From contig NZ_QPJQ01000006.1 in the NCBI RefSeq assembly GCF_003337275.1, positions 1 through 64,000 of the forward strand: 64,000 nucleotides of DNA, in the 5' to 3' direction. The notes under the pieces are model-generated. The model saw only the letters and a list, made by a program, of their open reading frames with translations. It was not told where the DNA came from and searched no databases. This document shows, one piece after another, positions 1 to 25,115 of this stretch; position 1 is the stretch's first letter, and each line of letters begins with the position of its first letter. A program made the position numbers and the translations under genes. Source of the stretch: Marinomonas foliarum. Lineage in GTDB: Bacteria; Pseudomonadota; Gammaproteobacteria; Pseudomonadales; Marinomonadaceae.

Positions 1-98
1 CTGCTTTATCTGTGGTAAGAAGAAGTGTATCAACTTCAGCAGTTGGCTTCTTCTACACCTGATTTGCAGTGTCGCACTTATTATCTGAATTTAGGGGT
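1..98. mobile_element. possible terminal segment of an IS30-type element at the hsdR break
   Basis: The hsdR reading frame matches the family up to about position 96 and then runs into unrelated codons that stop at 53. Read on the minus strand, the sequence just past the break begins with CCTAAATTCAGATAATAAG and continues GTGCGACACT, which resembles IS30-type terminal inverted repeats (TA.ATTCA followed by a GCGACA-like block). On the plus strand the same bases encode a short tail ending VALII, reminiscent of IS30 transposase C-termini. Only about 95 bases are present before the window edge, so neither a transposase nor a second inverted repeat can be seen. The family assignment is tentative; the break itself is firmer. 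Confidence 0.3.
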
Positions 99-2641: not shown

Positions 2642-2761
2642 AAACTCCCTACCTGTTGATTTTTTTGACGCAGTGTCAGTGTGCTCAGTCAAATGACCGT
2701 CGAATGAGATTTTATGCCCTCACCCTATTCCGGCAATAACTGCAAATAGTTCAAGCTTCGA

Positions 2762-4756: not shown

Positions 4757-6147
4757 TGTAAGCCTCCAGCCACTTTAACGGTTAACGCTTGGGCGAAGCC
4801 TTGTTTGTAATCTTCCGAAGCTAGATTAAGTTCAAAGAATTCGTTGACCTTACCCATATAGCGTTTTTTCACGCTACTTTTATCTGGCTCCAAATTATTA
4901 CCATCCACGGTGAGCTTGAACTTATCCAGATAGGCGAAGCATTGTTCGGGCGTGTAGCTAAGGGCTATCCAGTCCAGAACTGGAGTCTCCCTGACAAAGG
5001 CATAAACCGAGTTTTCACGCACGGCCTTCTGGTTGCTTACACGGCGAGAATAAACCACCCGGAACAGTTTTTTGGATGCTGCTTCCAACTGGCATTCCCC
5101 AAACTGGCTGATGTATTGCAGTAAACACGCCTTGTATAACCCTTCGAGATAACCGCAGCCCTCGAGCTCTTTCAGCCAAGCAATGAAGGATTGAAAGCCA
5201 GGCAAATGAGGTAAATCGGGCTTGTGCCAATAATGCTGGTACAGGCTTTGGAAATAGCTCAAATAGCGAATACTGTTCACACCAGCGTTCAGTGGCTGGC
5301 GAAGCTCATAACCCTGCTGGTACAAATGTTGGCTGACCTCGCCAGCCAACCCTACTTGACGATGCACACGCACAAACGAGACATCTGCACCTCTTCCGGT
5401 TTGTTGAGCCAGCTCGGTTACAATAGTGTCACGCACCTGTTTCTTTTGTTGGTGCGAGGGCAGTTCACGCATGTTGATCCGCTGCCAATAACGGCCCTTT
5501 AACAGTGCGCTGACGGTATCATCCAGCTTGCCCAATGATTCCCACTGCTTAGCAAAGGTTTTTTGATGTAGGGTGTCTATGGCTCGCAAGTGATGCGCCT
5601 TGATAATATCCGGGCCACCCAGCCTAACACCACCGGTATTCTGCGTTTCGAAGAAACGGTAAGCGTCGTCTTCCGTTTGGGTAATTACCACAGTGAACTG
5701 TAGCTTCTGAAAATCCATTAGCGTTTGCAAATACTCAGGCTGAGCACTGAAAGTATCTTGTAGCCACTTCAGGTTGTGCTTGATCTGCTGTTGGCTAATT
5801 GGGTGTTCGTATTCCAACGTGCTGACCAACTGTTGGCTGTCATCCCATTGCAGCAGGCAAGCGATTAGGGCCAAAGTCGTCACCCTTTGCTGGCCATCAA
5901 TGATATTCAATTTCCCGTTTGCCTGATGCAAAATTAAACTGCCAAGGTAGTAAGGCAGCTCCGGTGTTTGTTTGTTGTGATCGGCAATATCCCCCAGTAA
6001 TTGCGCCAGTTGCTGATCTTGCCAGCGATAAGGCCGTTGATACTCAGGGATGGTTAGTGCTCCGCTTACAGGCTGACCATTGCTCGTCATAGGCAGCTGG
6101 CCTTGCAATAGGTTTGCTGCAGAGCACGTTAAAACGGCGACCGTCAT
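4753..6147 (-). CDS. DUF262 domain protein
   Basis: A 464-residue protein with the DUF262 signature: PEYQRPYRW near residues 33-41 and IIDGQQRVTTLAL near 80. It lacks the clear HNH motif that ends its downstream neighbour, so it looks like a GmrS-like partner or a stand-alone DUF262 protein. AAGGAAAAAGA precedes the ATG. Its start overlaps the stop of the DUF4268 gene and its own stop overlaps the next start, giving tight coupling of three accessory genes inside a type I restriction operon. Nucleotide-dependent DNA cleavage or sensing together with the downstream DUF262/DUF1524 protein is an inference from family and context. Confidence 0.8.
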   Translation of the reverse strand: MTVAVLTCSAANLLQGQLPMTSNGQPVSGALTIPEYQRPYRWQDQQLAQLLGDIADHNKQTPELPYYLGSLILHQANGKLNIIDGQQRVTTLALIACLLQWDDSQQLVSTLEYEHPISQQQIKHNLKWLQDTFSAQPEYLQTLMDFQKLQFTVVITQTEDDAYRFFETQNTGGVRLGGPDIIKAHHLRAIDTLHQKTFAKQWESLGKLDDTVSALLKGRYWQRINMRELPSHQQKKQVRDTIVTELAQQTGRGADVSFVRVHRQVGLAGEVSQHLYQQGYELRQPLNAGVNSIRYLSYFQSLYQHYWHKPDLPHLPGFQSFIAWLKELEGCGYLEGLYKACLLQYISQFGECQLEAASKKLFRVVYSRRVSNQKAVRENSVYAFVRETPVLDWIALSYTPEQCFAYLDKFKLTVDGNNLEPDKSSVKKRYMGKVNEFFELNLASEDYKQGFAQALTVKVAGGLQ

Positions 6148-7307
6148 TCTTTTTCCTTTTGCTTTAAACCTTCAGCCGCTGTTTGCAGCGGTCCTTTTAA
6201 GGCTTTTTCTAACTTTGTCATCTGCTCTAAGTGCCACGCAACCGCTTTGGGCCAATTGTCTCTATTAAAACCTTCGACTCGGCTTGAAAACTGGATACGC
6301 GATTGCTTTTTGTCATCAAGGCGAAGCCATTCGAGCGGCTCACCAAAGGCTGAATCTATCTGACCTTTTTGCTTAACCAGTTCGTCAAACAGCCATTTGT
6401 TCTCATCACCGTTGGCACGGCTCAGCCATAGTTCAACACGTAGCTCTTTTTGATTGAAAATCAAGCTAAATGGACAACCTGTTACCCCTGAGCCAGCACA
6501 TAACCAATGATCTTTAGTGGTACTAATATTGTTATAGAGTTGGCAAGAGCTTTTCTGAAACGCCTCTAAGGCACGCTCCCAGTACTCGCGACGCACCGTA
6601 TGGCGGTTTTTAAGGACCACTTCGGTGGTTTTTTCTTCCGCTTCCTTGGCATTAATGCCGATCATCAATTCTTTCGCTTCTGGCGTTGGGATGATCTGGT
6701 CAATATTAATCAGGAGCTGTTCACCCAGTGAATAAGGCGTGATTTTGAAGCAGGCAATGCTAATGCCTTGACCCAATAACCACAGCGCTGTGCTGGTCAC
6801 TTCTTTGCGAAAGTTTGCAGCAACTAGCATAATGCGCTGGCTGTTACCCAGGTTGAGCTTTAACTCATCGAGATCGGGCGCATCCAAAAACTCACATATT
6901 CTCGCCGAAGCACTTGCAGGGGCATTTAACAGGTCAACCTCTGCTGTTACAGCCTCATAGCGGTCTAAGTACTGCTGGTAAATGTCAACTATTTGCGCTT
7001 TGGTTAAACTTGCACAGTAAGAGGCATATTTAAGCGCTTGCCACACCACATCGCGGCCACTGTCGTCCAGCTTGTTTTCGATAATGACCAAGTTGCCATC
7101 TTTATCCAATGCCAGTAAATCTAAGCGTTCACGGGTGTCATCAAAGCCATCAAACTCCTTTTGAATAATCAGTAGCTCTTCACCCAGTGCGGAAGGCTCG
7201 TGTGCCAACCATTCCTGAAGATGCTTGCGCTCAGTAAAGCCCAACTCACTGAACTTCTTTGTCCTAACAGGACTAATCCTGTTGGTTTGATGATTTACCG
7301 TGAACAT
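6144..7307 (-). CDS. DUF4268 protein with PD-(D/E)xK nuclease-like N-terminus
   Basis: A 387-residue protein. Residues 60-80 carry a restriction-endonuclease-like core, RLDLLALDKDGNLVIIENK, with D63 and the E77-x-K79 pair as the expected metal-binding residues. The C-terminal part (about 225-375) resembles DUF4268, including REYWERAL and the WLFDEL segment. Such proteins are often found near restriction or other defence genes; the substrate is unknown. The gene starts 9 bp after the hsdS stop and overlaps the following DUF262 gene by 4 bp, so it belongs to the hsd operon. It could be a nuclease accessory to the DUF262 pair or an independent anti-phage effector. No damage is visible. Confidence 0.75.
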   Translation of the reverse strand: MFTVNHQTNRISPVRTKKFSELGFTERKHLQEWLAHEPSALGEELLIIQKEFDGFDDTRERLDLLALDKDGNLVIIENKLDDSGRDVVWQALKYASYCASLTKAQIVDIYQQYLDRYEAVTAEVDLLNAPASASARICEFLDAPDLDELKLNLGNSQRIMLVAANFRKEVTSTALWLLGQGISIACFKITPYSLGEQLLINIDQIIPTPEAKELMIGINAKEAEEKTTEVVLKNRHTVRREYWERALEAFQKSSCQLYNNISTTKDHWLCAGSGVTGCPFSLIFNQKELRVELWLSRANGDENKWLFDELVKQKGQIDSAFGEPLEWLRLDDKKQSRIQFSSRVEGFNRDNWPKAVAWHLEQMTKLEKALKGPLQTAAEGLKQKEKE

Positions 7308-7316
7308 ATTCGCGTC

Positions 7317-8594
7317 CTATTGCTCAACCATTTCTGGGGTGATTTTTATTTTTCCTGTCACGGCGCTGTTGATCAGGGTGGTTTTGTATTCTTTAAGCTT
7401 TTCAATCTGCGACTTTTGGATATCAATCGTGCGATTCAGATCTGGCTCAATTCCTTCAATGAACGAAATTATTTCTTGAATTTCATCTTTTGGTGGCACT
7501 GGAACCAATACACTTGCAAGACGATCCCTTGTTAATTTTGGCTGTGCCGCACCAGAAATAAATACCGTATAGTCCAATCCACTTAATAACTCGGCCCAGT
7601 ATTTAAAACCATGAAATTTTGGCTTAATAATATGTGCATGGTTATTTACCCAATACTTTCCAGTTGCAACAAAAGCCAATGGTGTTGACTTGCTTAGCAA
7701 ATTCGCGCCATCTTCAGCGATCAAGATTAAATCTTCATCAAAGATGTAGTCATCAACATAATCGATAACACCACTTGCTCCGTAATACGGATATACGCCC
7801 TGTCTCGACTCTCTCTCAACTGCGCTTATTGGAACTCTTCTACTGTTAAGAAACTCAAACGCATATCTCAATGACATTAAGTTCCAATGCGCTGGAATCT
7901 TGCCAATCCAATCCACACCGGAGTCTTTCATTGGCACATTGGGATCAAGCCCTTGGGTCACCGCCTGTTGGATGATGATCTGCTTACGCTCTTTCAGCAG
8001 GCTAATTTGCTGCTCTTTGATCGCAATCGCTTCGTCTACTTGTGCTGTTTTCTTTTCGAGGTAGTTGGCTATCAGCTTTTGTGTATCTTCAAGGATCTCG
8101 AATATTGGCAGTCTTTTAAAATCAAGAAAGCTTAAGTTTTGACGCAAGCCCGAACCAAATTTATAGAGCACTTTGGTGGTATCTAAAGCGTGAAGGTAGT
8201 AATGAAGGAATCGAGCATCAAAGCCATTTTTTACCCGCAAGTTCAAATATGCGTTTGTGATAATGCCTTTATTTTTTGCCAAGCCAGTTCTTAGACTTAC
8301 TTTATCATTCTGAAGATCGGTACAACGAACAATGATGTCGTCAGGCTCTACCAATTGATAGGTTTCAAACGACTCAGGAACTAGACCGACGAGCTTTTCT
8401 TCTGGCTTAACAACTATATGGCCATAACTTAGGGATAGAACCGTATTCTCCTTCATCCCTTTGTTATTACTCTTACTTTCACTAAAGGCAACAAAGCCAG
8501 GCTTGAGTTCCCACGAACTTGGAATATCTCCTAGCCATTCAACACCTGAATCTTTGTAAGCCTCATATCTCGGCATCAACGCTAAACTTTCCAT
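7317..8594 (-). CDS. hsdS: type I restriction-modification specificity subunit HsdS
   Basis: A 425-residue DNA-recognition subunit. Two target-recognition domains are each introduced by a near-identical phrase: KDSGVEWLGDIPSSWEL near residue 15 and KDSGVDWIGKIPAHWNL near 222. Each is followed by a long helical spacer (EQQISLLKERKQIIIQQAV and SQIEKLKEYKTTLINSAV) that sets the distance between the half-sites. This is the normal symmetrical HsdS layout with two full-length halves, so a bipartite target sequence is expected; the target cannot be read from sequence. Its ATG overlaps the hsdM stop (TAATG) after a GGGAG ribosome-binding site. Confidence 0.93.
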   Translation of the reverse strand: MESLALMPRYEAYKDSGVEWLGDIPSSWELKPGFVAFSESKSNNKGMKENTVLSLSYGHIVVKPEEKLVGLVPESFETYQLVEPDDIIVRCTDLQNDKVSLRTGLAKNKGIITNAYLNLRVKNGFDARFLHYYLHALDTTKVLYKFGSGLRQNLSFLDFKRLPIFEILEDTQKLIANYLEKKTAQVDEAIAIKEQQISLLKERKQIIIQQAVTQGLDPNVPMKDSGVDWIGKIPAHWNLMSLRYAFEFLNSRRVPISAVERESRQGVYPYYGASGVIDYVDDYIFDEDLILIAEDGANLLSKSTPLAFVATGKYWVNNHAHIIKPKFHGFKYWAELLSGLDYTVFISGAAQPKLTRDRLASVLVPVPPKDEIQEIISFIEGIEPDLNRTIDIQKSQIEKLKEYKTTLINSAVTGKIKITPEMVEQ

Positions 8595-11025
8595 TATGCT
8601 TCTCCCTGAACTTCCGCCACGTTCACACCCAATATCTGCGCAATAAGACCTTCGGCTTTTTGTTCTAAGTTGATGATGTCGGTTGCGACCTCTTCTAAAC
8701 TACGCAGCGGTTTATGACGGTAGAAATACTTATTGAAGCTGATTTCATAGCCAATTTTCACCGTATCCAGGTTTATCCATGCTTCATCAACATGAGGCTT
8801 TACTTCGTCTAGGAAGTACTGGTAGATGCTTTGTTTCAATGGAACAGATTCTGTGTCACGCAGGTCTGAGTTCGTCTCGTAAGTGATATACTCGCCTTTT
8901 TTACCGCCTTCTGTGGTAGGAACGGGGTAATAACCAAAATCTGGCAGGTCAGCGACTTCACACTCATATCGCTCCAGCAGGTCGTTTAATTTTTCACCGC
9001 TTAACTTAACTACTTTTTTAACCACTTTCTTGGCGGTTTCGTCATACCAGCTCACCGCGTTCAGGATGGCATTTTTCTCAGGTGCTGAAAGCTTAATGGC
9101 GTGGGCTTTTAGTGATTTATCAACTTGGGTTTTAAAGCTATTGAAGTCATCAAATTCAATGCTACCGATGTCAGCCATCAGCGTTTGTGCAGTTTCAAGC
9201 AATGCTTTTAGCGCTAGCCAATGTTTCACATCGAGCAGTTTTGCCTTAGCCTTGGCATTGAGACTGATGTCGTTATCTTCACACCAAGAAAGAATGTCCT
9301 TCTCAATGGATTTTAAGAAGCTCTTTTTCTGATCAGACCCGTAGCCAGTTTTTTCGTAAACACGTTCGCCGTGCTCTGCGTACACGTACTCCATCACTTC
9401 ACTAAGTTGCTTATCAAAACGCAGTGGAGCTATTGCGTCTTGAGTGAACTTGGCTTTGCGGCGATCTGGGCGCTCGATAGTGACTTTGTAGTAGCCAAAG
9501 TCGTCATTACTAAACACCTTACTAGCGATACCGATAGGATCATTATTTGCATCAAGTGCTCTTTCAACGTCCACACACGCAAGGTAAGTATCGGTGATTT
9601 CCGTGATGTGCTCAGGCGCAAATTCGCAGTTTTTGTTACCCAAGTTCTTACGCAACTTACGGTATAGCAAGCTGGCATCAATCAGTTGCACCTTGCCTTT
9701 GCGTGCTTCAGGTTTATGGTTGTTCAACACCCAAATGTAAGTGGTAATGCCGGTGTTATAGAACAGGTTATTAGGTAACTGAACGATGGCATCTAGCATG
9801 TCGTTTTCAATGATGAAGCGACGAATGTTACTTTCGCCACCGCCCGCATCACCGGTAAAGAGCGATGAGCCGTTATGAACAGAAGCAATCCGGCTGCCTA
9901 ATGGGCTTACGCTCGGATCTTTCATCTTGTTGACCATTTCCATTAAGAAAAGCAGCTGGCCATCACTTGAACGTGGCGTGGCATCCACCACTTCGAGATT
10001 TCCCCAATAATCTTTCAGGCTAACCTTAAAACGTGGGTCAATTACATCATTGCCGTCTTTAATGTGCTTCTGTTCAGACGCCCAACTCTTACCGTATGGC
10101 GGGTTAGACAACATAAAGTCAAAGCGTGAAGCCGCGAACTCATCGGTAGACAAGGTTGAGCCTTCGCGAATGTTCTCGGGGTTGTTGCCCTTGATCATCA
10201 TGTCCGATTTACAAATCGCGTAGGTCTCGTCGTTGATCTCTTTGCCGTAAAGGTAAACATCTCGACTGTCGTTCGGGTATTTCTCTTCAATAAAGTTTTG
10301 AGATTCAGTCAACATACCACCGCTACCACACGCAGGGTCATACACTGTCATGGTAAGCGGTAACTTGTCTTTGACTGGGTCAAACACCAGGTGCGTCATC
10401 AATTCAATCACTTCACGTGGCGTAAAGTGTTCACCTGCTTCTTCATTGTTTTCTTCGTTGAACTTGCGGATCAACTCTTCGAACACGTAACCCATACCCA
10501 GGTTAGTAAGGGCTGGCATCTTGTTACCATCTGGGTCTTCGACCGTTTCATGAGTTAAGTTGATGTAAGGGGAAACAAATTTCTCGACGACATCAAGAAG
10601 GACTTGCTTTGAGGCCATGTGACGAATTTGAGACTTGAGGTTAAAGCATTCAATGATTTCTTTAACATTATCGCTAAAGCCAAGCAGGTACTCTTCAAAG
10701 TTGGCGAGTAATATCTGTTGGTTATTCGTTGCGGTGTTGAATAGGGATTTCAGCGTCCATTTAGATGTATTGTAAAAGACATAACCACTGGGGCTGCCTT
10801 CAATGGTTCATCATCAAGCTCCGTGGCTTGCATCTCTTCTTTTTGGAACTTTACCTCATCAAGCACGGCTTCTTTGGTAGGTTCTAGTAACGTATCTAAA
10901 CGTCGTAATACCACCATAGGTAAAATCACATCGCGGTACTTACCGCGAACGTACACATCACGTAAACAGTCGTCGGCAATGTTCCAAATAAATGAGATGA
11001 GCTTGTTATGTACACTATGATCCAT
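8594..11025 (-). pseudogene. hsdM: type I DNA methyltransferase HsdM, frameshifted near the N-terminus
   Basis: This is the N6-adenine methyltransferase subunit of the type I system. Two frames together make a full-length protein. Codons from the ATG at 11025 encode the HsdM N-terminus (MDHSVHNKLISFIWNIADD) down to DDEPLKAAP, then pass into a stop at 10752. The frame that resumes with SGYVFYNTSKWTLKSL is open through to 8594. The break falls at the four-G run 10790-10793, consistent with one lost base. The large downstream part holds the SAM-binding motif DPACGSGGML and the catalytic NPPYGKSW. A restart at the ATG at 10618 would give a 674-residue protein lacking about 135 N-terminal residues that normally help bind HsdS. 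Sequencing error is the alternative. Confidence 0.88.
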
Positions 11026-11138: not shown

Positions 11139-12089
11139 TTAACTTGTTCTGCCAGGCGCTAGATTTAAGTTTGTGACACCATAAAGTGCCTGGCTGTTAC
11201 GCAACCAAAGCTGATACTCAAAGCCCATTAATGAGTGCTCCGAAGAACAATCCACATGCCATTGGCGTAGCAAATAGCCAGCTGTTGCTGCTCTAATCTC
11301 AACCTTTAGAACACCACCCGTCATGCCATACTCCAGTTCAATCGCTTCACTGTGCTCTATGCGTGGGTGTGGCACTAACTCCAGCTCTACAAATCGGTTC
11401 CATTGCCGGTCTTGAGTTTCGAGCTCACTTTCTTTGATAACAGAAAGCGACAACGTGGAATCTTCAAGCACAGACGCTGCTTTAATTCGGGTCAGTACAA
11501 AGTCTCTGAATTCACTGTGCTTACGGTCGAATGCTCGAATATGCCAACGCAGGCCATTATCCACCAGCGTATGCGGCACAATGTCACGCGTTGTTTCACC
11601 ACGCGATAACAACACATAGGTGATGCTCAAGGCTTTGCCTTTGTGTATGGCCTCGGTGACCTTCGTCACTATAGATAGACTAGGTTTAGGTTTGTTAAAG
11701 TAATAAGGCGCTTCACAAGCTGGAGGTGGTTTTACCTGTCCATTAAAGCCATCTCCGTACCCTTAGCTAATCGTCGCCAGTGTTCGAACGACGTCATTAA
11801 CAAACAAAGGTTCAAATGCTTCACCGCGCTTATGCAACTTGAGCTTTTGGTCATACTCAATGTTGCCTGGCGCAAGCTCTCGGTATAGAGTGAAGTCTTT
11901 CGTTGCTTGTGCGGCCGCTATGCTGAAGCGATCGACTAAATCCGCCCGTACCGCTTCTCCCTTAAATAATAAGGTGAAATCAATGTGGGTAAGCTGCGCT
12001 ATCTGCGAAAGCCTATTTAGCTTGCCTTTCATACCTTCTTTAGCGAGTGAACTCGCGGGTACCCTTTGCTTCAGACCATTATTTGTCAT
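11139..12089 (-). pseudogene. WYL-domain regulator of BrxR/CapW type, interrupted by an in-frame TAA
   Basis: Two open segments in the same frame belong to one gene of about 316 codons. The first (12089-11763, 108 residues) is a winged-helix DNA-binding region. The second (starting at a GTG at 11669, 176 residues) is the WYL domain with DIVPHTLVDNGLRWHIRAFD and a C-terminal extension. The codons between them are open (GYGDGFNGQVKPPPACEAP) and fit the family linker, so only the TAA at 11763-11765 separates the halves. One C-to-T change from CAA would explain it. BrxR/CapW proteins repress neighbouring anti-phage operons and use WYL as a ligand sensor; here the target is probably the hsd operon 113 bp downstream. 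As it stands, the product would be a DNA-binding fragment without its sensor. Confidence 0.8.
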
Positions 12090-15852: not shown

Positions 15853-16851
15853 CTAATCTAAACCCAGCAATTCTCTCGCTTGATGATGAATATGATCACG
15901 CCATTCGACTGGCTCATGCACATCGATCGCAGAACCATAACCTTGTATCCACCAGAGCGTTTGTTGGTCATCCGCTACACTGGCATTGAGCCAGTACCAG
16001 CCTTCTTCAGCTTGGGTAAGCACTTGATCTTCACTGATTGGCGTTTCTGATAACAGCCAAGCTATTTCGCTTTTCACTCGAGCTTGAAGTGTTTTGGTGT
16101 CTGAAGACTGACGGTAGCTAAAAGCCCCTTGATCGATATATTCGCCAAGATTGAAGCTTCCTAAATGTCGGTATGGTTTATCTGATCGCTCTACTTTTTG
16201 GGTTCTGTGAAGAGCAAATTGACGAACCTCATCGTAGTCTTTTACCGTTGCTAGTAAATAACTGACACTGTGCCTTACAACAATGCCTTGTGGGTGAAGG
16301 ATGTACTCTTTGGGTTCGTTCCTGGTGCGGCTTAGGTAAATAACATCAATAGCGTATTCTTCTAATACCGATTCTGAAACCGCCTCCCAAATGCCTTTTT
16401 TAATTTTGGCAGGGATTAGGGTTTTACCACTGGGAAGTGCTTTTATTCGATTCGCCCAACCTGAGTAATGGTTAGATGGCAAGGCATTGAGGTATTGTTG
16501 AGCCGCTTGAAATTGTGACGTGATTTGATCGACAACGATTTGTGGTAGTAGACCAGAAAGGTATTCATGAGCAAGCACCAAGGTCAACGCTGTTGGGGTA
16601 TCCAGACCTACTTTGGAATCATTAAATGACGCAGACAAACTCCAACGATATTCGCCATCCCCTTCTTTGCAATATAACGGCAAATGACTTGTCATTGCGT
16701 TAAGATCTCGCTGGACTGTTCGCAATGAAACTTTAAAGCCTTTTTCTTCTAAGGTTGCATGGATAGTAGAGGTGGCTTTGTATCTAGGTTCTTTCGGTAT
16801 GGTTCGCAGCATGGCGAATGTGCGAAATAAAGTGTCGTGCTTTGTGCCCAT
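15853..16851 (-). CDS. HTH/WYL-domain transcriptional regulator 2
   Basis: A 332-residue regulator. The N-terminal winged helix (about 1-75) contains SLRTVQRDLNAM, the recognition-helix region typical of WYL regulators. The WYL domain (about 160-240) contains YAIDVIYLSR, LHPQGIVVRHSVSYLLAT and DEVRQFALHR, with a C-terminal extension. WYL domains sense nucleic acid or nucleotide ligands and often control defence or mobile genes. It is a clear paralogue of the regulator at 23570-24595, sharing RDL, ALIPA-like, LHP and VRQ(F/Y)AL(H/Q)R blocks. It lies downstream of the AlpA-type gene, at the distal end of the recombinase module. A damaged copy of its own 5' end is present at 17163-17250. Confidence 0.87.
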   Translation of the reverse strand: MGTKHDTLFRTFAMLRTIPKEPRYKATSTIHATLEEKGFKVSLRTVQRDLNAMTSHLPLYCKEGDGEYRWSLSASFNDSKVGLDTPTALTLVLAHEYLSGLLPQIVVDQITSQFQAAQQYLNALPSNHYSGWANRIKALPSGKTLIPAKIKKGIWEAVSESVLEEYAIDVIYLSRTRNEPKEYILHPQGIVVRHSVSYLLATVKDYDEVRQFALHRTQKVERSDKPYRHLGSFNLGEYIDQGAFSYRQSSDTKTLQARVKSEIAWLLSETPISEDQVLTQAEEGWYWLNASVADDQQTLWWIQGYGSAIDVHEPVEWRDHIHHQARELLGLD

Positions 16852-17325: not shown

Positions 17326-20300
17326 TCAGTGCTTTTCCAATAATTTAAGTAAAAACATGGCATGACTAAACTGAGGGATTGATACGATTTCACCCTTCAT
17401 TGTCAGCTGCTCTACCGCACGTGACTCAAACACCGCACCACCTACTCGCCTATTCATTTTGCGTGTAGCAAGCTTAATTCTAAGCTGGCAGGCTATAAAT
17501 GCCGCGCTTGCTTCTTGCATTTGAAAGGTCGGAATAAACATTTTTTTCTTGGCGTCGTACCATGCCTGTTGCCATAACTGCATCAGTGCAGTAAAAGCGC
17601 CAGAGCTCTCCTGTTTGCATTGAATCAGATGTATGAGAAGTTGGTAAAAATCGGCATCCTTGACGTAATTTCTTGCTTCATAAAGGCGTGACTGCCCGAT
17701 AAAGTCTACACCCTCTTCATTTGATGATATCTCATATGCCCTGTATGACACATCATTGGTTAAGATAGCCTGGTAAGCACTCCTTACCGTATCAACATGG
17801 TGCTGCGTTAACTCGTAATGATGGTCTGACGGTTTAATCGGGGGTGCATCAGGCGCTTCATTTGACTGTCTTTCTGCGTCCTCTAAATACCTAAGTGCCT
17901 TTTCAATTCTCTGAATCTGAAGGATTTGAGTTGCGATACTGTTTTTGTCTCTAGGACTTAACTCGGGTTTTCGATCAAACGACTCAATTTGATACGCTCC
18001 GCCAACAGGAAGGCTTTCTTTTTGTGTCTTTTTTAGCACTACATAACTTGCAGACAGCCCTTGCTCACTCTTCAACTCAATAAAGCGTTTTCGAGGGACT
18101 CGAATCAGCCTAGCTAACACTCCATCCAGTTTTTTTACGCTTTTAAAATTTTCTTCAACAGCCAGCCATCTCCAGTAATCCATTAAATGAATGTAGGATG
18201 ACAAGGTTGTCGTTGCACTAGAGTGACCAATCATTAGCGCTAATGCCGGAAGCAAAGCATGGTGCGTGGTGGGCGTGGCAACCGTCGCTTCACAAAAACG
18301 TCGTTGAAATTCCGAGATAAGCTTTGAACCTATCCATGCTTTTACGACTTTCGCTATAGGGTCGCGCTGTTTATCATTCAAAATCAACGCCGTGGCAATA
18401 AAACTAATACAGGTATGACGTCCGTCGTGCAGGCGCATCTCGGGGTCTCCTGTAACAAGCTTAAGCGCTTCAATAACTCGACTAAAATGACTGTCCATGT
18501 GTCGTATTTCTTTCGGGTTTGTCAAATCAAAGAAGAGCGGGACAGACTGACTTTTCTGGCCTTTTACTTTCTCAATACATGTGTATAGTATTTCAATCTC
18601 TTGTTCGTTCAGAAACAATGAATATGGAATTCTACGGTTTCCACTTTTCGATTTTACCCGAACCGTATCTTTTGATATGCGATGCGTCCTTACATACAAA
18701 ACTTGTTCTTCAACTGAGAAGTCTCGTAGCTTTAATCGCCTTATCTCTTCTCGTCTAAGCCCCAGACGGCAACATAGTATTAAAATTGCAGCATTTGTAG
18801 ACTGCTCTTCTGCGTTCATATCTTTATCGGATAGCAAAAGTGAGAGAGCTTGTTCATACTCCCATGGCATGATGATTCGGCCAGTCAGACTTTCTTCATT
18901 TTCCTCGACATCCAAGTCACGGAAATCAAATTTAACAACACCAAAATATTCTTGAATAACAGAATGAAAACGAGCCAATATCTTTGCTCTATCAGCGCGA
19001 TTTTCAATATCGCCTGCATCAATAATGTCTTGATAAAGATCTGAAAAATCTTCGTAGTCAAATGTTGTCAAAGATTGGTTTGCAGCAAACTCAAAAAGAC
19101 GTGGAACTACCTTTGAGAAATAAGTTTGAATCGAGGAAGTGGCCAAACCACCATAGCGTTGTCCTTTTCGCCCAGAAATTTCATATAACCAGGTTAGAAC
19201 AAGAACAGTAATTTCCGGTAGATCTTGAGATCCCTTTACTAAGTCAGAAAGATTTTTAGCTTTTTCAAATGAAATTAGCTCTTGCCAGAAGCGGGTGATT
19301 TTCTCTTTTGAAGTACCAGGATACCTAACAAACTTATTTCTAAAGTCTGCCATAAACGTCTTAAAGTAATCGTTTGAACGTGGCTTTGCCTTAAAAAAGG
19401 AGCGCTCTGCAATAGCGCTCAACTTAGCTTCACCACTGGATGGTATAATGTAACGATGCTTACGATCCAACAACCTTAACAGGGTGTGCTCAGAAAGGCC
19501 TTTTACCCTGAGTGTTCCTTGGCGCAGTCCATAGAGAGCTCCTGTTTCTGATCGTCTCGGCGCGAGATCAATTAGTTGATAAAGTTTACTAAAAGTCATC
19601 TCTTTATCATGCACTTGCCGAAACAACGCTGACAGCTTTGCATACCCACTAGCAATGGATTTATCAACGTTGACTTCAGGGCAATTGCCGTTCATAAATA
19701 GTTCTAATGTTTGTGGATTCAGGATGACGTTATTGAACTCCCCTCTCTTGATCAACATTGCTAGAAATAACGCAGAGAGCCCACCAAAAAACACTAGTTT
19801 CTCATTTATCTTCGCTGTGAGGTAACCATTTGAGTACTTTACTGAACTGATGGTCACTGATCTACGAAGCATCTCAGCAGAAAGGTCGCCGGTGCCATCG
19901 AGTATCATGAAAAACAGTAAAATATTACCAAGGGTCTCTGAAGAAACCTGCTTAGGGTGAGTGATCAATGCTTGTGCAAAATCACAAAATGTCGAGTGAA
20001 TCTGTGTGTAGTTTCGTTCACTGAACATCACACCGTAAGGTAATACTGTACTAGCTACGGGAGATTTTTTTAAATAACGCCCTAATGCGGAGTGTAATTC
20101 ATCGCTGTTAATTATTGTCTGCTCGCCATCGCTTAGCTTCAGTGCTTTAAGCAATATAAGTGTTTGTTCATGTAAGTATGGGTCGTCCCTGTATTTCTCA
20201 GATAAGAGCTCGTAAAAGTCTTGATTTGTCTTGATTGCCTCATCTAACAAAGATCTCAGATCGGATTGAATTTTTGTTTCAGCGCTTTTCGACTGATTCC

Positions 20301-22596
20301 GAGATTTTTTCTGAATAGACGTCGGGACAAACTGCCCATTGTTGTACATCTTTGAGTGAGAAAAGCTTGTGCGCGCGAGCAGACTAAACCCTAGTTCATC
20401 AAGACATCTTGAGATTGAGTTTCGATGTATTTCAACTTCAGAACCGCCATACTGCATTAAAGAGGTTTTTTGAAATGAATGCATATCTGTCGAAATATGT
20501 CCCATTTGATGGTCCAAAAATGGAGTCGCATCTTCGTAGGAAAAAAGCATTTGATAAGACAATTGTCGAATCGCATTTTGTGGTAGGGACCATCCCTCAC
20601 CCATAAAAACCTCTACTTGAGCAGTGCTTGCTTCAGCAAAAGTTCCATTATCTTGCCATAGACCAAGAAAAGGAGCCTTACTGTCTCTATGAATGGAAGA
20701 CTTGAGCAGTATGGCAATTTTTTTATCCAGCAACTTAACGCGTTTAAAAATTTGCTCAATCCAACCTAGCGTATTTTGAACCTGCCTCGTCATTAGTTCA
20801 GGAACAGGAATTATACGGGTAGCACTCTCGCCAAAATGTATTTTGTCAGCTATCAGTACACTGGTGTAATCCTCGTTCCAGCAATAATGCTCAATAAACA
20901 TACTTTTGTTTCGGCGATGGCTAGTGACCGCAGAAAACATCAAAACAGTGTAAGAAACGAGCTGATTATAAATTTCACGCAAAGCGTCTAGTGATCTACT
21001 CGCTCCTACGCTTCGCAGAGAAGCATTTAGGGATTCCACTCTTTCAGCTAAACGTTCTGAAAAGATTGCTTTATTGATCGATAACTTAGAACCGATGACG
21101 AAATTGTCTTTGGAAAGATCCACTTGATGATCGAAACCAAAACCCAATGATTCGATACAAGTTTTTATGAAAGACAACTGCGAGTGATGAGTTGTGTCCG
21201 ACATATAGTAATGCCAAGTTGACAACCCGAATTCGTTATTAGCAAAAATAAGCGCCGCCCTATGCCGACCATACTTGGAGGCCACGCACCCATAAAGCAA
21301 ATATCGAAGTGTCTTATGAGTTAAACGCCTATTTAAATCACCAAGGCAAACAATCTCTCGGCATGCTTGCGTCAACAAATCATTCGCTTTTTGTGAAACA
21401 TCATCAGGTAAAACTTGTTCTATTAAACCCGCTTGGTATCCAGCAAAGAAAGCTCTCAACAAGTGTAAAAACTGGTTAGGAATGGGTAATGCTAACCAAT
21501 CTGTATGTGGTAACAGCCATTTTTGGTCTTCGCTATTGGGCTCGTAACGATCAGCAATATCAAGCCCTTTGCGCCAATATCGTGCTGAGGCAAGGTCAAT
21601 GATCCCATAACAACTATCCGACTGTTTAAAGGCATCTGCATCGCTCTCTGCTAGGGCAAGATGCAAACCAAGTACCTCGTGCAATTTTAAAGTCGTTAAG
21701 ATAGTTAAAAAACCGAGCGCTGAGCTAGCAGTTGGTTGTGCGTAATTGATCCATTGAATCGCTTTATCAAGTTCACGAGGCGTCAAACGGTAAGTAACAA
21801 ATGTGAGACCAAATTGTTCTTTAGCCGATAGAATTTGATTTCTGAATAAGTCACGCTCTGCTTTGACGACTGGACTGATTGCCTCAGAGTCTAGATCGAC
21901 AATTTCAACATCTGGAGTATCTTCAATGTCCAAATCATTCCCAGTAAAAGGGAAAGGCGCGACAGTAACTACCCCTTTAACACCTGAATCAGGCCGCCTC
22001 GCTCTTATCCTTGTTTTATCAACTAGAGCCGTATTTTCTTTATAATTTGAGCACAGATTCCAACCATCACGAACCATTTTCAAATAGGCTTGTGATACCG
22101 TGTACTGCCCTGTAATTTCATTACACAGGTACTCAAGTGTCTTGACAACTGAAAGCTCTTTAGCGATTTCCTTTATTTTTGCGCTATTGACTCTTTGCGA
22201 CAAAATTAGCCGAATATTATCAGCGGCTTCAGCAACCGTGACAAAAGTAAAATTTGCCTCGCTTGATACCAAGGCATAGAAAATAGATGCTTGTAGCTTA
22301 TGCAAGACAACATGATCAATATCATTAGGGAGTTTTTTTACATCTAGAGATAGAAAAGATAAAACGGGGAGTTGACTTATCTTGCCTTTGCAGAGCTTTC
22401 GCGCTTCTTCCAGTGTTGCTTCAAAGTCCGTATCATTTAAAATACTAGCTTTATCTAGAATAATATCGGCATCAGCACTCCCAGAGCTTATGAGATAAAA
22501 ACTAAGAAACTCCCTGCCGATCCTTTGAAGCTTTATATTTGCAAATTCTGACTCGCAATTTTTAAGCGCTCTTCTTAGTAATGGATTTATAGTCAA
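17326..22596 (-). CDS. giant multi-module tyrosine recombinase (1,756 residues)
   Basis: The C-terminal part is a complete tyrosine recombinase. A SAM-like core-binding region (about 1110-1225) is followed by a catalytic domain with R1281 (LGLRREEIRRL), K1317 (KSKSGNRRIP), H1390 and R1393 (LHDGRHT), H1458 (MIGHSS) and Y1468 (LSSYIHL), at normal spacing. About 285 residues follow. Unusually, some 1,100 residues precede it. Residues 540-720 look like a second recombinase fold with R561, R677 (QNAIR) and H700 (MGH, 23 residues on), but no Tyr at the expected place. Residues 290-470 resemble a third, with R431, N454 in place of His, and Y463/Y464. Ordinary integrases have about 300-450 residues. 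Translation starts at a TTG that overlaps the upstream stop (TTGA), with GGAG at 8 nt. It is probably the integrase of the island. Confidence 0.88.
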   Translation of the reverse strand: MTINPLLRRALKNCESEFANIKLQRIGREFLSFYLISSGSADADIILDKASILNDTDFEATLEEARKLCKGKISQLPVLSFLSLDVKKLPNDIDHVVLHKLQASIFYALVSSEANFTFVTVAEAADNIRLILSQRVNSAKIKEIAKELSVVKTLEYLCNEITGQYTVSQAYLKMVRDGWNLCSNYKENTALVDKTRIRARRPDSGVKGVVTVAPFPFTGNDLDIEDTPDVEIVDLDSEAISPVVKAERDLFRNQILSAKEQFGLTFVTYRLTPRELDKAIQWINYAQPTASSALGFLTILTTLKLHEVLGLHLALAESDADAFKQSDSCYGIIDLASARYWRKGLDIADRYEPNSEDQKWLLPHTDWLALPIPNQFLHLLRAFFAGYQAGLIEQVLPDDVSQKANDLLTQACREIVCLGDLNRRLTHKTLRYLLYGCVASKYGRHRAALIFANNEFGLSTWHYYMSDTTHHSQLSFIKTCIESLGFGFDHQVDLSKDNFVIGSKLSINKAIFSERLAERVESLNASLRSVGASRSLDALREIYNQLVSYTVLMFSAVTSHRRNKSMFIEHYCWNEDYTSVLIADKIHFGESATRIIPVPELMTRQVQNTLGWIEQIFKRVKLLDKKIAILLKSSIHRDSKAPFLGLWQDNGTFAEASTAQVEVFMGEGWSLPQNAIRQLSYQMLFSYEDATPFLDHQMGHISTDMHSFQKTSLMQYGGSEVEIHRNSISRCLDELGFSLLARTSFSHSKMYNNGQFVPTSIQKKSRNQSKSAETKIQSDLRSLLDEAIKTNQDFYELLSEKYRDDPYLHEQTLILLKALKLSDGEQTIINSDELHSALGRYLKKSPVASTVLPYGVMFSERNYTQIHSTFCDFAQALITHPKQVSSETLGNILLFFMILDGTGDLSAEMLRRSVTISSVKYSNGYLTAKINEKLVFFGGLSALFLAMLIKRGEFNNVILNPQTLELFMNGNCPEVNVDKSIASGYAKLSALFRQVHDKEMTFSKLYQLIDLAPRRSETGALYGLRQGTLRVKGLSEHTLLRLLDRKHRYIIPSSGEAKLSAIAERSFFKAKPRSNDYFKTFMADFRNKFVRYPGTSKEKITRFWQELISFEKAKNLSDLVKGSQDLPEITVLVLTWLYEISGRKGQRYGGLATSSIQTYFSKVVPRLFEFAANQSLTTFDYEDFSDLYQDIIDAGDIENRADRAKILARFHSVIQEYFGVVKFDFRDLDVEENEESLTGRIIMPWEYEQALSLLLSDKDMNAEEQSTNAAILILCCRLGLRREEIRRLKLRDFSVEEQVLYVRTHRISKDTVRVKSKSGNRRIPYSLFLNEQEIEILYTCIEKVKGQKSQSVPLFFDLTNPKEIRHMDSHFSRVIEALKLVTGDPEMRLHDGRHTCISFIATALILNDKQRDPIAKVVKAWIGSKLISEFQRRFCEATVATPTTHHALLPALALMIGHSSATTTLSSYIHLMDYWRWLAVEENFKSVKKLDGVLARLIRVPRKRFIELKSEQGLSASYVVLKKTQKESLPVGGAYQIESFDRKPELSPRDKNSIATQILQIQRIEKALRYLEDAERQSNEAPDAPPIKPSDHHYELTQHHVDTVRSAYQAILTNDVSYRAYEISSNEEGVDFIGQSRLYEARNYVKDADFYQLLIHLIQCKQESSGAFTALMQLWQQAWYDAKKKMFIPTFQMQEASAAFIACQLRIKLATRKMNRRVGGAVFESRAVEQLTMKGEIVSIPQFSHAMFLLKLLEKH

Positions 22597-23423
22597 TGTT
22601 CGATCTCCATTTGAACGTGACTATGAGAGAAGCTGATTAATTCATACTGTTTCTCAGACACCTGCTTAACTGTAAAATCGAACAGCACGTAGGTATCAAT
22701 TGAAAAAGCTTTACTTCTCTCTAATGCAGAATATTGCTCAGCGCTAACCAGCACAGCCTTTTTTCCTTTGCCACTCTTAGGGACAATTTCAACGCTTGGA
22801 GATTTCTTATGGGTATCACTGACTTCATACTCTAAAAATGAAACTGCTTGAGCGTCAGGCTTAAAATCCGGTTTTTCAGGTGGACTAAGTATTCCTATTT
22901 GATGAGACTCTTCGTGCCCTTCAACATGGACATCAAATTCTTTAACTCCTTGATGTTCAGCGATTTCATAAAGGATTTTGATAGCCTCATACGCGTCGTG
23001 AGACTTTGTAAAGCCAGATGCTTGGTAAGAGACTGATGCAGGCTGGTCAAGTTCATTGAGTTGTTCGATGGATTTCGTCATGCCTGTAAAGTGCAGGTTT
23101 AACACATCACAAACTATCTCTTTTACGGAATGTATAAGATCAGGCGCACTTTCTAAAAAATCATAATTTACTTGAATATGGTCATCTAGCGCGGCAACCG
23201 AAAACTTCCTTGCTTCGAGCTTAAATCCTGCATTCTTTTTGCGTGCCTCTATTGGAGAGCCTTTGCCATTAGCGACTTTTGCAAGCAAATCAGTTAAGTT
23301 ACCTATTAAGTCTACTGTTTTGTTCCCGCTTTTACCGATATTACTAAATACAATCGCATTTCGTGTCTTATCAAACGTGACATCTTTTAGTTTTATGTCA
23401 ATCCTATATACAGTCTCAATCAT
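22593..23423 (-). CDS. uncharacterised protein coupled to the giant recombinase
   Basis: A 276-residue protein of unknown family. The ATG at 23423 is chosen because GGAGAG precedes it; the frame extends five codons upstream. Visible features are a basic stretch with alternating charged residues (about 50-75), a mid-region HVEGHEESHQIGILSPPEKP rich in His and Pro, and a C-terminal block of beta character (SIDTYVLFDFTVKQVSEKQY). There is no signal peptide or membrane segment. Its stop overlaps the recombinase start by 4 bases, implying production in a fixed ratio and perhaps a complex. It could be a DNA-binding accessory or directionality factor; nothing in the sequence proves this. Confidence 0.65.
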   Translation of the reverse strand: MIETVYRIDIKLKDVTFDKTRNAIVFSNIGKSGNKTVDLIGNLTDLLAKVANGKGSPIEARKKNAGFKLEARKFSVAALDDHIQVNYDFLESAPDLIHSVKEIVCDVLNLHFTGMTKSIEQLNELDQPASVSYQASGFTKSHDAYEAIKILYEIAEHQGVKEFDVHVEGHEESHQIGILSPPEKPDFKPDAQAVSFLEYEVSDTHKKSPSVEIVPKSGKGKKAVLVSAEQYSALERSKAFSIDTYVLFDFTVKQVSEKQYELISFSHSHVQMEIEH

Positions 23424-23496
23424 GTACTCTCCGGGCATTCATTAATACTGAATAAAAAACAGCAACTGGTTGAATATACTCAGAATTTACACGGTA

Positions 23497-23569: not shown

Positions 23570-24595
23570 TTAATTCATATCAATTTCTAGAGATGAGAGA
23601 GAATGAGACAGATTTATTATCTGTCTGGCCTCATGAAGAATCCCCTCCCTCAGAGACAAAGGTGCACGTACAACAATTTCAGCACCCTGACTAAGGAGCC
23701 AACAGCGAGTATCTCTATCATCTGGAATGACAGCTCGAAGGCAGAACCACTCACTACTCATTGTTTTTAGTATAATTTGCGACTCACTCAATTTTGTTTC
23801 TTCAAGCCTTCTTGCTAAGCTAGGAGAAATAAGAGCCTCCAACTGAATTGATTCATCAGAAAATTTAAGACTGGATTCACCGTTATCTATGTAAGTCTGA
23901 ACTGAAAAGCTCGGGTTGGGTCGAAAATCAACTGATGATACCTTCAATGATTTAAAACGCTGAAGTGCATACTGTCTAACATCATCATATTCGTTGTAAG
24001 ACCCAAGCACATAAGTAGCACTTTTGCGGATCATTACGCCATAAGGATGAAGGACGAATGACTGGATCTTATCTTTTGCATGGCTATCATAAATAACATC
24101 TAAAGCTTTATTTGACATTATTGCATCACAGACGGTAGCCCACATACTTGAATCAATAGTTGCTGGAATCAGCGCTTTGCCATCTGGGATGATTTTTACT
24201 TTATCCAGCCAATTAGAGTAAGTTTTATCGGATGAAGACTGAAGAAAGTTTTTTGCTCGATTGAGCTGAGGTGATAATTGAGCTAAAAGTGGTGTTGGCA
24301 TAATACCAATGAGATATTCGTTTACCAAAATGGTGCTCACAGCAGAAGAAACATCCATAGCAGCAAAACTACCTTGGTAATCTGAGGCAAAACGCCATCG
24401 GTGGGGCCTTACCATATCATTGCGCATTATAGGGTAATACTTAGCTAAGAATGCTAAATCACGCTGTAAGTTACGCACCCCTGTCTGAGCACCTTTCTCT
24501 TCTAATTTTGCAAGTATATCAATTGTTGATATACCCGGCTTAGGCTCAACAGGTAGCAGCTCAAGTATATTGATGTATCTAATAGCGGTGTTCAT
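23570..24595 (-). CDS. HTH/WYL-domain transcriptional regulator 1
   Basis: A 341-residue regulator with the same plan as WYL regulator 2. The N-terminal winged helix contains TGVRNLQRDLAFLAKYYP. A WYL domain contains ALDVIYDSHAK, LHPYGVMIRKSATYVLGS and DDVRQYALQR, followed by a C-terminal extension with DTRCWLLSQGAEIVV. It precedes the p276-recombinase operon with a 147-bp gap that holds a palindrome-overlapped promoter. Control of recombinase expression, perhaps in response to a nucleic-acid signal during infection or transfer, is therefore likely; this is inference from position and family. The ribosome-binding site before the ATG is weak. Confidence 0.87.
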   Translation of the reverse strand: MNTAIRYINILELLPVEPKPGISTIDILAKLEEKGAQTGVRNLQRDLAFLAKYYPIMRNDMVRPHRWRFASDYQGSFAAMDVSSAVSTILVNEYLIGIMPTPLLAQLSPQLNRAKNFLQSSSDKTYSNWLDKVKIIPDGKALIPATIDSSMWATVCDAIMSNKALDVIYDSHAKDKIQSFVLHPYGVMIRKSATYVLGSYNEYDDVRQYALQRFKSLKVSSVDFRPNPSFSVQTYIDNGESSLKFSDESIQLEALISPSLARRLEETKLSESQIILKTMSSEWFCLRAVIPDDRDTRCWLLSQGAEIVVRAPLSLREGILHEARQIINLSHSLSSLEIDMN

Positions 24596-25039
24596 CTCAA
24601 TGACCGAATTTCACTTTTAAAAAAGCAACAATACATCACTTGATCAACATCATCCATAAACGGCATCAGAAGAAGTCACAAGACGTATAAACGCAATTAT
24701 CGCGATACCACTAGAGACGATGGCCTTTAAAACTATGGAGCGTCATATCACTTAACAGAATAAAAATACAATAAGGTACAACAAGGTGTATGAGCTAGAA
24801 GAAATATTATAAATGGGACTATTCAGGACGAACTTCAAAATCAGCAGCATGTAAACATAAAATACGAGCTAACATGATGCCATATTGATCAATCGAGTCA
24901 CAAATAGGTCACACCTGAGTCACAAACGAAATTGATGAAAATTCTGGTCACAAGGTGGTCACAAATTAAATAAGTGTCTACGACGTAAGAAAGGCTATTG
25001 AAACAATGAGATAGGTATATCTTAGGCTTGATAAAACGA
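24596..25039. other. putative attachment-site region between WYL regulator 1 and tRNA-Val
   Basis: 444 bp without a coding sequence that I can support. It holds five clustered GTCACAA-type repeats (24897-24965) plus a lone copy at 24675-24682, and ends directly at the CCA end of tRNA-Val copy 1. It is A+T rich and unlike the neighbouring tRNA spacers. Its position between a recombinase module and a tRNA 3' end suits one arm of an integrase attachment site. Confidence 0.4.
24897..24965. repeat. phased GTCACAA direct repeats
   Basis: Five direct copies of GTCACA(A/C) start at 24897, 24908, 24919, 24947 and 24958, so the intervals are 11, 11, 28 and 11 bp. Most are preceded by G or A. An 11-bp step places them on one face of the helix, as in arm-type integrase sites or Xis/AlpA binding arrays. 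They lie 75-143 bp from the 3' end of tRNA-Val copy 1. No similar cluster was noticed elsewhere in the accessory half. Confidence 0.7.
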
Positions 25040-25115
25040 TGGTGGGTGTGGAGGGGTTCGAACCCCCGACATTCGCCTTGTAAGGGCGACGCTCTCCCAA
25101 CTGAGCTACACACCC
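25040..25115 (-). tRNA. tRNA-Val(TAC), copy 1, island-proximal
   Basis: A 76-nt cloverleaf with acceptor GGGTGTG/CACACCC, anticodon loop CTTACAA and encoded CCA. The T-stem reads GGGGG-TTCGAAC-CCCTC, whereas the two sister genes have GGGAG-TTCGAAC-CTCTC. The difference is a compensated base pair. The rest is identical. Its 3' end faces the accessory region, the usual target end for integrases. Confidence 0.95.

Follow-up and report, generated by a model that had tools for sequence, protein, structure and literature searches.

A 1,756-residue recombinase of Marinomonas foliarum with three recombinase-type modules and a catalytic tyrosine and pocket that may be divided between two of them

The closest described systems combine several recombinase-type proteins. 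According to the available part of PMC5385486, GInt islands carry ginABCD at one island end, encoding three proteins of tyrosine-recombinase (YR) type and a small accessory protein. The giant recombinase described here resembles them in its three YR-type units with a small protein, its place at one end of a probably site-specific island with variable cargo, and in having an incomplete YR-type unit, as GinC likewise lacks the first catalytic arginine (PMC5385486, in part). Compared by description only, GInts differ in their four separate genes and in the full motif of both GinA and GinB (same source, in part), whereas the giant is one chain in which two modules divide the catalytic set, with the small gene coming first. 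Strand-biased circularizing integrative elements (SEs; intA-tfp-intB-srap) are similar as well, being described as a gammaproteobacterial operon for three YR-fold proteins and an auxiliary one, with one YR-fold protein devoid of the catalytic motif (PMC10214605, in part). They differ in their separate genes, IntB having 720 aa and Tfp 581 aa. Identity with SEs was rejected, as IntA, Tfp, IntB and Srap of SE-6945, the one SE compared (IntA as a 283-aa part), have no profile similarity to the three modules (best E 0.026 in the four-protein search). Gamma-mobile-trio (GMT) islands share, in the available part of PMC12039261, recombination genes that are trio-type by name and a cargo of antibacterial and defence genes. 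Identity on the basis of GmtY was rejected too: the NCBIfam model recomb_GmtY (441 positions) matches nothing in this genome, and only one of 26 third modules (E 0.032). In RIT and Tn554-type trios several recombination genes also act jointly (PMC8138268 and PMC10214605, both in part), but as separate proteins; this comparison is by description only.

For the chemistry, Flp is the nearest parallel, as its tyrosine is donated in trans to the pocket of a neighbour (PMC2747268, in part), which is what is proposed below for the first two modules of the giant. In Flp, pocket and tyrosine come together in every monomer, whereas the giant would place them on different specialised domains. Of the solved structures, XerC/XerD, XerH and XerA rank with those closest to the modules, but their chains of 290–363 residues hold a single module and the giant holds three. 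To our knowledge, no active tyrosine recombinase, not even the tyrosine-swapping Flp, has protomers that lack either pocket or tyrosine. The literature searched contained neither a YR of the giant's size nor a divided YR active site; subscription papers, the GMT paper among them, fell mostly outside its scope.

The DNA analysed is a stretch of 64,000 nt (the window), and its features are collected in Table 1. The giant gene is located at the margin of a phage-defence island that abuts the 3' end of a tRNA-Val gene; restriction and WYL genes are its neighbours. The junction follows the CCA of the tRNA; the window begins at the contig end, and the far end of the island lies beyond the contig. 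The TTG start of the giant gene shares a TTGA with the TGA stop of the preceding gene X. The frame of 1,756 aa is real and no artefact, since 10 of 48 genomes of the genus contain it at full length (1,756–1,800 aa) and free of stops, and an 11th (G022) has the protein broken into frames of 212 and 1,586 aa. Gene X can be aligned among 12 loci of the genus, with L048–L050 far diverged; compared with the first genes of nine other loci, no similarity was detected (best E 0.68).

Table 1. Features of the giant recombinase locus, with positions in the window
Feature	Position	Strand	Remarks
Fused recombinase gene, 1,756 aa	17326..22596	-	TTG start, single frame
M1, residues 252-482	21151..21843	-	YR catalytic-type; Tyr kept, no R/K/H pocket; profile alignments to XerH, M2 and M3
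Y464 of M1	21205..21207	-	sole invariant M1 residue, 49/49
M2, residues 500-745	20362..21099	-	YR catalytic-type; R-K-N-R-H, conserved Tyr absent
R561 of M2, box I arginine	20914..20916	-	49/49
K585 of M2, beta-hairpin lysine	20842..20844	-	48/49
R677 of M2, box II arginine	20566..20568	-	in NxxR, 49/49
H700 of M2, box III GH	20497..20499	-	49/49
S712 of M2, serine at H+12	20461..20463	-	near-invariant, 48/49
M3, residues 1105-1500	18097..19284	-	complete YR: core-binding and catalytic domain
R1281 of M3	18754..18756	-	26/26 relatives
K1315 of M3	18652..18654	-	conserved lysine rather than K1317; 26/26 relatives
Y1468 of M3, nucleophile	18193..18195	-	26/26 relatives
X, accessory gene, 281 aa	22593..23438	-	TTGA overlap with giant gene; no match above the Pfam cut-off, none in NCBIfam
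WYL/WCX regulator, upstream of giant gene	23570..24595	-	order WYL - X - giant in 7 related loci
Five TGTGAC repeats	24897..24963	-	in two groups separated by ~11 bp; may form a binding array for a recombinase or regulator
tRNA-Val, 3' end (CCA)	25040..25115	-	marks the island junction; putative left attachment site

Among the 15 other minus-strand ORFs of at least 100 aa between positions 53 and 24595, Pfam found no other recombinase. Based on this setting, we infer that the giant moves its genomic (defence) island. A scan of 23 related loci located tRNA genes at nine; in L086 and L087 the distance to the start of the gene is ~300 bp or less. The other 14 have no tRNA nearby; they include G028, with the giant ~40 kb from tRNA-Val. 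The tRNA-Val repeat is present in G028, the island region of which also holds two YR-like ORFs of 401 and 402 aa. In G003 the repeat was not found in the 98 kb to the right, which, like the 14 loci free of a nearby tRNA, counts against mobility.

Three YR catalytic-type modules were delimited in the giant, namely M1 (residues ~252–482), M2 (~500–745) and M3 (~1105–1500), which bears out the three recombinase-like modules that an earlier note on this DNA had read in the chain of 1,756 residues. Pfam matches only M3 in the giant itself (Phage_integrase, residues 1262–1397, E 1.1e-6, over the cut-off). This module has R-K-H-R-H-Y in canonical order and spacing, with R1281, K1315, R1393, H1458 and Y1468 each present in 26 of 26 relatives and H1390 in at least 90%. 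The catalytic set named in the earlier note is thereby retained apart from K1317, the conserved lysine being K1315; homologues above 1,500 aa exist, and Y1468 is invariant in them. M3 is most likely an active, self-sufficient tyrosine recombinase.

The M2 profile matches the solved YR 4a8e, which we take to be XerA of P. abyssi, with an E value of 6.7e-5, and XerD at 0.0011–0.0014. The profile comparison with M3 is weak (P 0.26 in one run, 0.022 in another). Together with the residues listed in Table 1, these matches indicate, at the level of sequence, a YR domain with conserved pocket residues: R561, R677 and H700 are as previously stated, and K585 completes the set. A catalytic tyrosine conserved within M2 was not found in 49 sequences, tyrosine occurring at H+8 in nine, at H+9 in none, at H+10 in one and at H+11 in 14, which agrees with the lack of a tyrosine at +9/+10 reported before. 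Those M2 modules with a tyrosine at H+8 or H+11 may have a nucleophile of their own. In the alignment to 4a8e, S712 stands opposite the serine just past the 4a8e tyrosine.

M1 presents the complementary picture. Among the 49 sequences, conservation in M1 exceeds 90% at Y464 alone; P373 comes next (43/49). The neighbouring Y463 is a tyrosine in 24. Pocket arginines and a histidine are not conserved: arginine occurs in three sequences at position 304 (box I) and in 12 at 431, and position 454, in the place of box III, is histidine in four and asparagine in four. R431, N454 and Y463/Y464, which the earlier note had singled out, are thus all present in the giant, but Y464 alone is conserved throughout. 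Profile-profile scores are 32.0 for M1 against M3 and 32.5 against M2, compared with maxima of 14.9 (M3) and 15.6 (M2) among 100 shuffles of the columns in either case, and with 10.2 when the profiles were reversed; judged by these scores, the kinship of M1 to YRs is above chance. In an earlier shuffle control one of 100 read 131.9, taken for a parsing fault, and the repeat with stricter parsing and a larger alignment had a maximum of 15.6. The hhalign probabilities for this kinship are just 27–48% (13–32% in other runs). With HMMER, M1 aligns along residues 174–355 of XerH, and its tyrosine coincides with the one in IYTH, a motif of both XerH and XerD, presumably their catalytic tyrosine; the XerD match is weak (i-E 0.52). 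The tyrosine is at N/H+10 in M1 (N454–Y464) and M3 (H1458–Y1468) alike. These alignments suggest a YR domain with a tyrosine at the nucleophile position, an assignment weakened by a structure search in which the enlarged alignment recovered M1 solely via XerA (E 0.85).

When 45 diverse sequences are compared, Y464 does not vary in M1, nor do R561, R594, R677, G699 and H700 in M2, and the near-invariant columns are G502, N544, D584, K585, N674, L684 and S712. The non-catalytic G502 and N544, and S712 as well, come close to K585 in conservation, which the composite site discussed below does not explain. Y464, R561, R677 and H700 are present in all 26 sequences that were not part of the first alignment, and K585 and N674 in 25 each. 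These 26 come from the loci sampled in the order and the phylum plus L095, and do not represent every match location. They were selected from 56 matched ORFs by dropping 12 that did not cover both modules and 18 sharing exact stretches with the first alignment or each other; as the filter recognised exact stretches only, it let through L161, a near neighbour of L100 in the first set, as well as L136, L137 and L139, which closely resemble one another. In all three relatives with M1 and M2M3 as separate proteins, tyrosine and pocket sit on different polypeptides. A purely structural role of M1 and M2 seems unlikely, because the positions that stay invariant are either catalytic or adjoin the motifs (R594, G699), and they are distributed over both modules. 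The earlier interpretation thus holds for three YR-like modules of which the last is complete, but not for its N-terminal modules as structural parts, whose positions should then drift and of which Y464, R561, R677 and H700 are instead invariant.

The modules do not always form one chain. Of 20 related loci, seven are fused, eight have M1M2 and M3, three have M1 and M2M3, and two are irregular (L095, M1M2 with no M3 match; L098, the end of M2 with M3). Since many relatives carry two adjacent genes, M1M2 with M3 or M1 with M2M3, the giant is most likely a fused operon X - (M1M2) - (M3), the parts of which are still separate genes in many relatives. The earlier note had proposed that the single chain might stand in for a multi-subunit synapse or occupy several arm sites. 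That some relatives hold the same modules as two proteins suggests that the fusion is unnecessary for function, whatever this function is. In an unrooted tree of 51 M2 stretches (52 rows minus an Acinetobacter plasmid copy with an M2 match too short or missing), a weak branch (57/57) separates the 31 split forms from the rest, among which fused, truncated and M1|M2M3 forms are intermixed.

The reading we favour, with a probability of roughly 0.55, is that the giant is an island recombinase derived from an operon fusion, in which M3 is self-sufficient and Y464 of M1 serves the pocket of M2 in trans. The R-K-N-R-H pocket of M2 would grip and activate the scissile phosphate, and M1 would provide the nucleophile as a neighbouring Flp monomer does, here obligately in trans. 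One chain would then hold two chemically different active sites, M3 acting in cis and a composite of M1 and M2. Since M1 lacks a pocket and M2 a tyrosine, this composite could cut just one strand per bound site, giving a one-sided strand exchange to be completed by M3 or the host. That Y464 comes within range of the pocket of M2, and in which order the strands are cut, is inferred; both AlphaFold models (residues 1–800, and 248–745 with six sequences) were too poor for use, with a mean pLDDT of 42.5 and 42.8 (~43). For the wider proposition the odds appear even: that M1 and M2 have become permanently specialised, one for the nucleophile and the other for the phosphate pocket (two proteins in some relatives), with obligate trans cleavage of one strand per site, and were fused here with a complete third recombinase into a single machine that moves defence islands.

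Alternatively, and in line with the earlier note, M3 alone could be catalytic and M1 and M2 degenerate YR folds for DNA binding and synapsis, comparable to Tfp of SEs and GinC of GInts. Such partners are described in the available parts of PMC10214605 and PMC5385486, and the scarcity of the box I arginine (3/49) and box III histidine (4/49) in M1 and the lack of a conserved tyrosine in M2 fit this view. We consider it unlikely, as the invariant positions of M1 and M2 are catalytic or motif neighbours and complementary, and DNA binding alone hardly explains why all 49 sequences retain a tyrosine in M1 and R-R-H in M2 (lysine in 48/49). The resemblance of the N-terminal part to YRs might even be a coincidence in an ordinary large island integrase, given that Pfam sees M3 alone in the giant and that residues 1–800 gave no usable AlphaFold fold. 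This seems highly improbable in view of the match of M2 to 4a8e and the profile controls, and the M1 and M2 stretch of 15/45 relatives matches Pfam Phage_integrase (E up to 0.1).

Two further explanations keep M2 active without the M1 tyrosine, and we regard both as improbable. S712, water or a displaced tyrosine of M2 itself might act in its complete pocket, Y464 having a separate role; the near-invariance of S712 (48/49) and the tyrosines at H+8 (9/49) and H+11 (14/49) speak for this. However, S712 at H+12 is two residues past the place of the M3 nucleophile and opposite the serine that follows the 4a8e tyrosine, no tyrosine place is conserved in M2, and the invariant Y464 is left unaccounted for. 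Or Y1468 of M3 in a neighbouring chain might serve the M2 pocket with Y464 being structural, which is of comparably small probability. The M3 tyrosine is invariant, and M3 directly follows M2 in 13/13 loci with a regular split layout, but M3 already has a complete pocket, Y464 is invariant at the nucleophile position of M1, and the irregular locus L095 has M1 and M2 and no M3 match.

This recombinase family is not rare. Of 390 genomes sampled in the order (the genus itself counted), 42 contain matches to the joint profile of M1 and M2; across the phylum, 18 of 398 do. The genome of the giant also carries a split copy, with an M1M2 protein of 859 aa. Distant matches to the M3 protein of this split copy (~25% identity over its catalytic portion) occur in 241 of 72,556 plasmid records, of which 237 are from Acinetobacter; the single copy examined there is fused. 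With the giant as query, phage records and plasmids gave no match at E 1e-5, and scans of viral contigs found no relatives. As the examined copies bear generic annotation only, the family has probably been overlooked so far.

If pocket and tyrosine have been parted by evolution, the domain cutting each strand would be fixed. If true, simple mixing of mutants could then address a long-standing question, whether the order of strands in site-specific recombination can be hard-wired. A parted active site might also explain why trio-type islands need several recombinase folds.

The giant recombinase, to which the residue numbers below refer, is a real gene. Within the genus sample of 48 genomes (the window's own and 47 others), full-length frames of 1,756–1,800 aa without an internal stop occur in 10, two of them with two copies. 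Five full-length relatives come from named genomes, four of Marinomonas and one of Maribrevibacterium. The gene is split into frames of 212 and 1,586 aa in genome G022, and into 205 and 1,567 aa, divided as in G022, in Marinomonas phaeophyticola (L007:7992-13315), and in genome G012 contig ends hold two pieces of it. Since the start of the giant overlaps the stop of the accessory gene X, with shared bases in TTGA, translational coupling of this pair is probable. A short gene also precedes the recombinase genes in all nine loci read out beyond the giants of Marinomonas. WYL/WCX genes account for seven of the eight upstream frames tested in related loci (L004, L005, L007, L008, L052, L053 and L056); the frame of L049 is not of this type, and no frame of WYL/WCX-gene size lies before X in L006.

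Features of the giant recombinase and its surroundings
Feature	Position	Strand	Remark
Giant recombinase	17326-22596	-	single open frame, 1,756 aa, TTG start
M1	residues ~252-482		most diverged of the three modules
M2	residues ~500-745		same layout as M3
M3	residues ~1105-1500		complete tyrosine recombinase, judged from sequence
X	22593-23438		281-aa gene before the giant
WYL/WCX regulator	23570-24595		before X
Other WYL-domain genes of the island (three in all)	11139-11669, 15853-16851
Five TGTGAC(C) repeats	24897-24963		between tRNA-Val and the WYL gene, ~75-145 bp inside the junction
tRNA-Val	25040-25115		island junction at its CCA
Two adjacent GmrSD-domain genes	2762-4756, 4753-6147		among Type I restriction-modification genes
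124-aa frame	12398-12772		matches last residues of AddA/RecB-like nucleases

The earlier note proposed three recombinase-like modules in one chain, and this is borne out. By its sequence, M3 is a complete tyrosine recombinase: its profile matches a solved integrase (E 3.5e-9), and Pfam Phage_integrase matches the giant with the whole protein as query (E 1.1e-6). Across 26 relatives, the only invariant M3 columns are R1281, E1284, K1315, R1321, R1393, G1457, H1458 and Y1468. K1317, previously taken as the catalytic lysine, is not conserved; the conserved lysine is K1315. The M2 profile matches XerD 141-272 (E ~1e-3) and 4a8e, listed as XerC-like and presumably the XerA of P. abyssi (E 6.7e-5). 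Phage_integrase is matched somewhere in the M1+M2 stretch in 15 of 45 relatives (E up to 0.1; best 1.2e-5). The M1 profile matches XerH at E 0.0027, and the M1 part of the M1+M2 profile matches XerH 174-355 at E 0.0023 (chain) or 0.016 (stretch), with Tyr aligned on Tyr; it aligns likewise, weakly, with XerD. Profile-profile scores are 32.0 for M1 against M3 and 32.5 for M1 against M2, compared with maxima of 14.9 and 15.6 in 100 column shuffles each and 10.2 for reversed profiles. The hhalign probabilities of the M1 matches are only 27% (M3) and 48% (M2), and the profile-profile method gives only a weak match between M2 and M3. Counting against M1 kinship, the structure search with the larger alignment gives M1 only via XerA, at E 0.85. 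Two AlphaFold attempts on the N-terminal part of the giant gave no usable model.

The column conservation of M1 and M2 divides the catalytic set between them. In 23 relatives, Y464, R561, D584, K585, R594, N674, R677, G699, H700 and S712 are invariant. Retested on 26 sequences not used in finding this pattern, Y464, R561, R594, R677, G699 and H700 are present in all 26, and D584, K585, N674 and S712 in 25. The same six columns are the invariant ones in 45 diverse sequences (mean column identity 23%), with seven more at 90% or above (G502, N544, D584, K585, N674, L684 and S712). Over 49 sequences, no M1 column other than Y464 exceeds 90%, and P373 ranks next (43/49). The M1 pocket positions are rarely kept (box I R in 3/49, R at 431 in 12/49, H at 454 in 4/49), and a Tyr of M2, counted from H700, occurs at H+9 in 0/49, H+10 in 1/49, H+8 in 9/49 and H+11 in 14/49. 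Judged by these columns, M1 thus retains the nucleophile but no longer the pocket, and M2 retains the pocket without a conserved nucleophile.

The giant is a fused operon. Its profile matches in 28 of 390 order genomes and 4 of 369 class genomes, own genome and genus counted. Layouts were read from 20 longer stretches fetched after these searches. Seven carry M1-M2-M3 in a single frame (1,785–1,916 aa), eight have M1M2 (788–859 aa) directly followed by M3 (787–1,144 aa), two of these being L100 and L101 of this same genome, and three have M1 (539–567 aa) followed by M2M3 (1,238–1,350 aa), which places the nucleophile half and the pocket half on separate proteins. Two loci, L095 and L098, are irregular. 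The 1,010-aa frame at L095:7360-10392 has M1 and M2, no M3 match, and falls within the fused forms in the tree; it is probably a truncated copy. Three plasmid loci comprise two M1M2 + M3 pairs (M1M2 of 743 and 738 aa) and one fused copy of 1,684 aa, on an Acinetobacter portensis plasmid (L105:7621-12675) a few genes from WYL/BREX genes. The split M3 protein matches 241 plasmid records distantly, and Acinetobacter accounts for 237 of these. Of 390 order genomes, 42 match the M1+M2 profile, at 57 places in all, 15 of which lie in frames >1,600 aa; in the phylum it matches in 18 of 398 genomes.

The window sequence leaves the intact tRNA-Val/tRNA-Asp spacer directly beyond the tRNA-Val CCA. The tRNA-Val on the island side carries a paired, compensatory change in its T-stem, GGGGGTTCGAACCCC vs GGGAGTTCGAACCTC in the sister copies, as if the island had brought its own tRNA 3' end. 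Among 23 related loci scanned, nine have tRNA genes (the Val array again in five, Asp/Val in one and Met in three) and 14 have none. Because tRNA-Met genes (L086:12545-12621 and L087:5880-5956) lie ~300 bp upstream of two fused, distant relatives, the tRNA neighbourhood is not peculiar to the Marinomonas Val site. In genome G028, the island region lies between tRNA-Val and the next tRNA-Asp, with a partial tRNA-Val 3' copy at the right junction; the giant lies ~40 kb inside, two other recombinase-like frames share the region, and the repeat therefore cannot be ascribed to the giant. No partial tRNA-Val repeat was found within 98 kb in genome G003. The TGTGAC repeats recur at the tRNA-Val copies of L004 and L006 and the near-identical L005, L007 and G003, and were not found in G028 or nine loci scanned (L008, L048-L053, L100, L101). 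Mononucleotide shuffling of the window gave no such cluster in 20 trials. Possible binders of the repeats are the WYL protein, X and the recombinase.

Restriction and WYL genes left of the giant make surroundings typical of a defence island. Type I restriction-modification genes span 53-10618, with a DUF4268 gene between their parts. The first WYL gene is a short frame of 176 aa starting inside the WYL domain, and the 124-aa frame is likely a gene remnant. A second WYL gene follows the giant in L004 and L008.

By the comparisons made, the giant belongs to neither the SE nor the GMT elements. None of the SE-6945 proteins IntA (part), Tfp, IntB and Srap resembles any of the three modules. NCBIfam recomb_GmtY, of the GMT elements, has no match in this genome, is absent from the families that 45 M1+M2 stretches hit, and gave one match (E 0.032) against 26 M3 modules. 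GInt, described as three integrases and a small protein (PMC5385486), is by that description the nearest in outline.

On the conservation pattern, the earlier view of the N-terminal modules as merely structural gives way to putative complementary halves of one active site (M1 and M2) beside a complete one (M3). Of the readings considered, a composite M1/M2 site is the likeliest, with odds that are roughly even or a little above, and delivery of Y464 to the M2 pocket would be the simplest mechanism. In Flp, according to PMC2747268, the tyrosine can come from a neighbouring protomer. M2 would hold the scissile phosphate, M1 of the same or a partner chain would supply Y464, and M3 would form a second, ordinary active site. 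An M1M2 pair, with M3 or the host perhaps completing the reaction, would be able to cut at M2 only, so that one strand may be exchanged per site.
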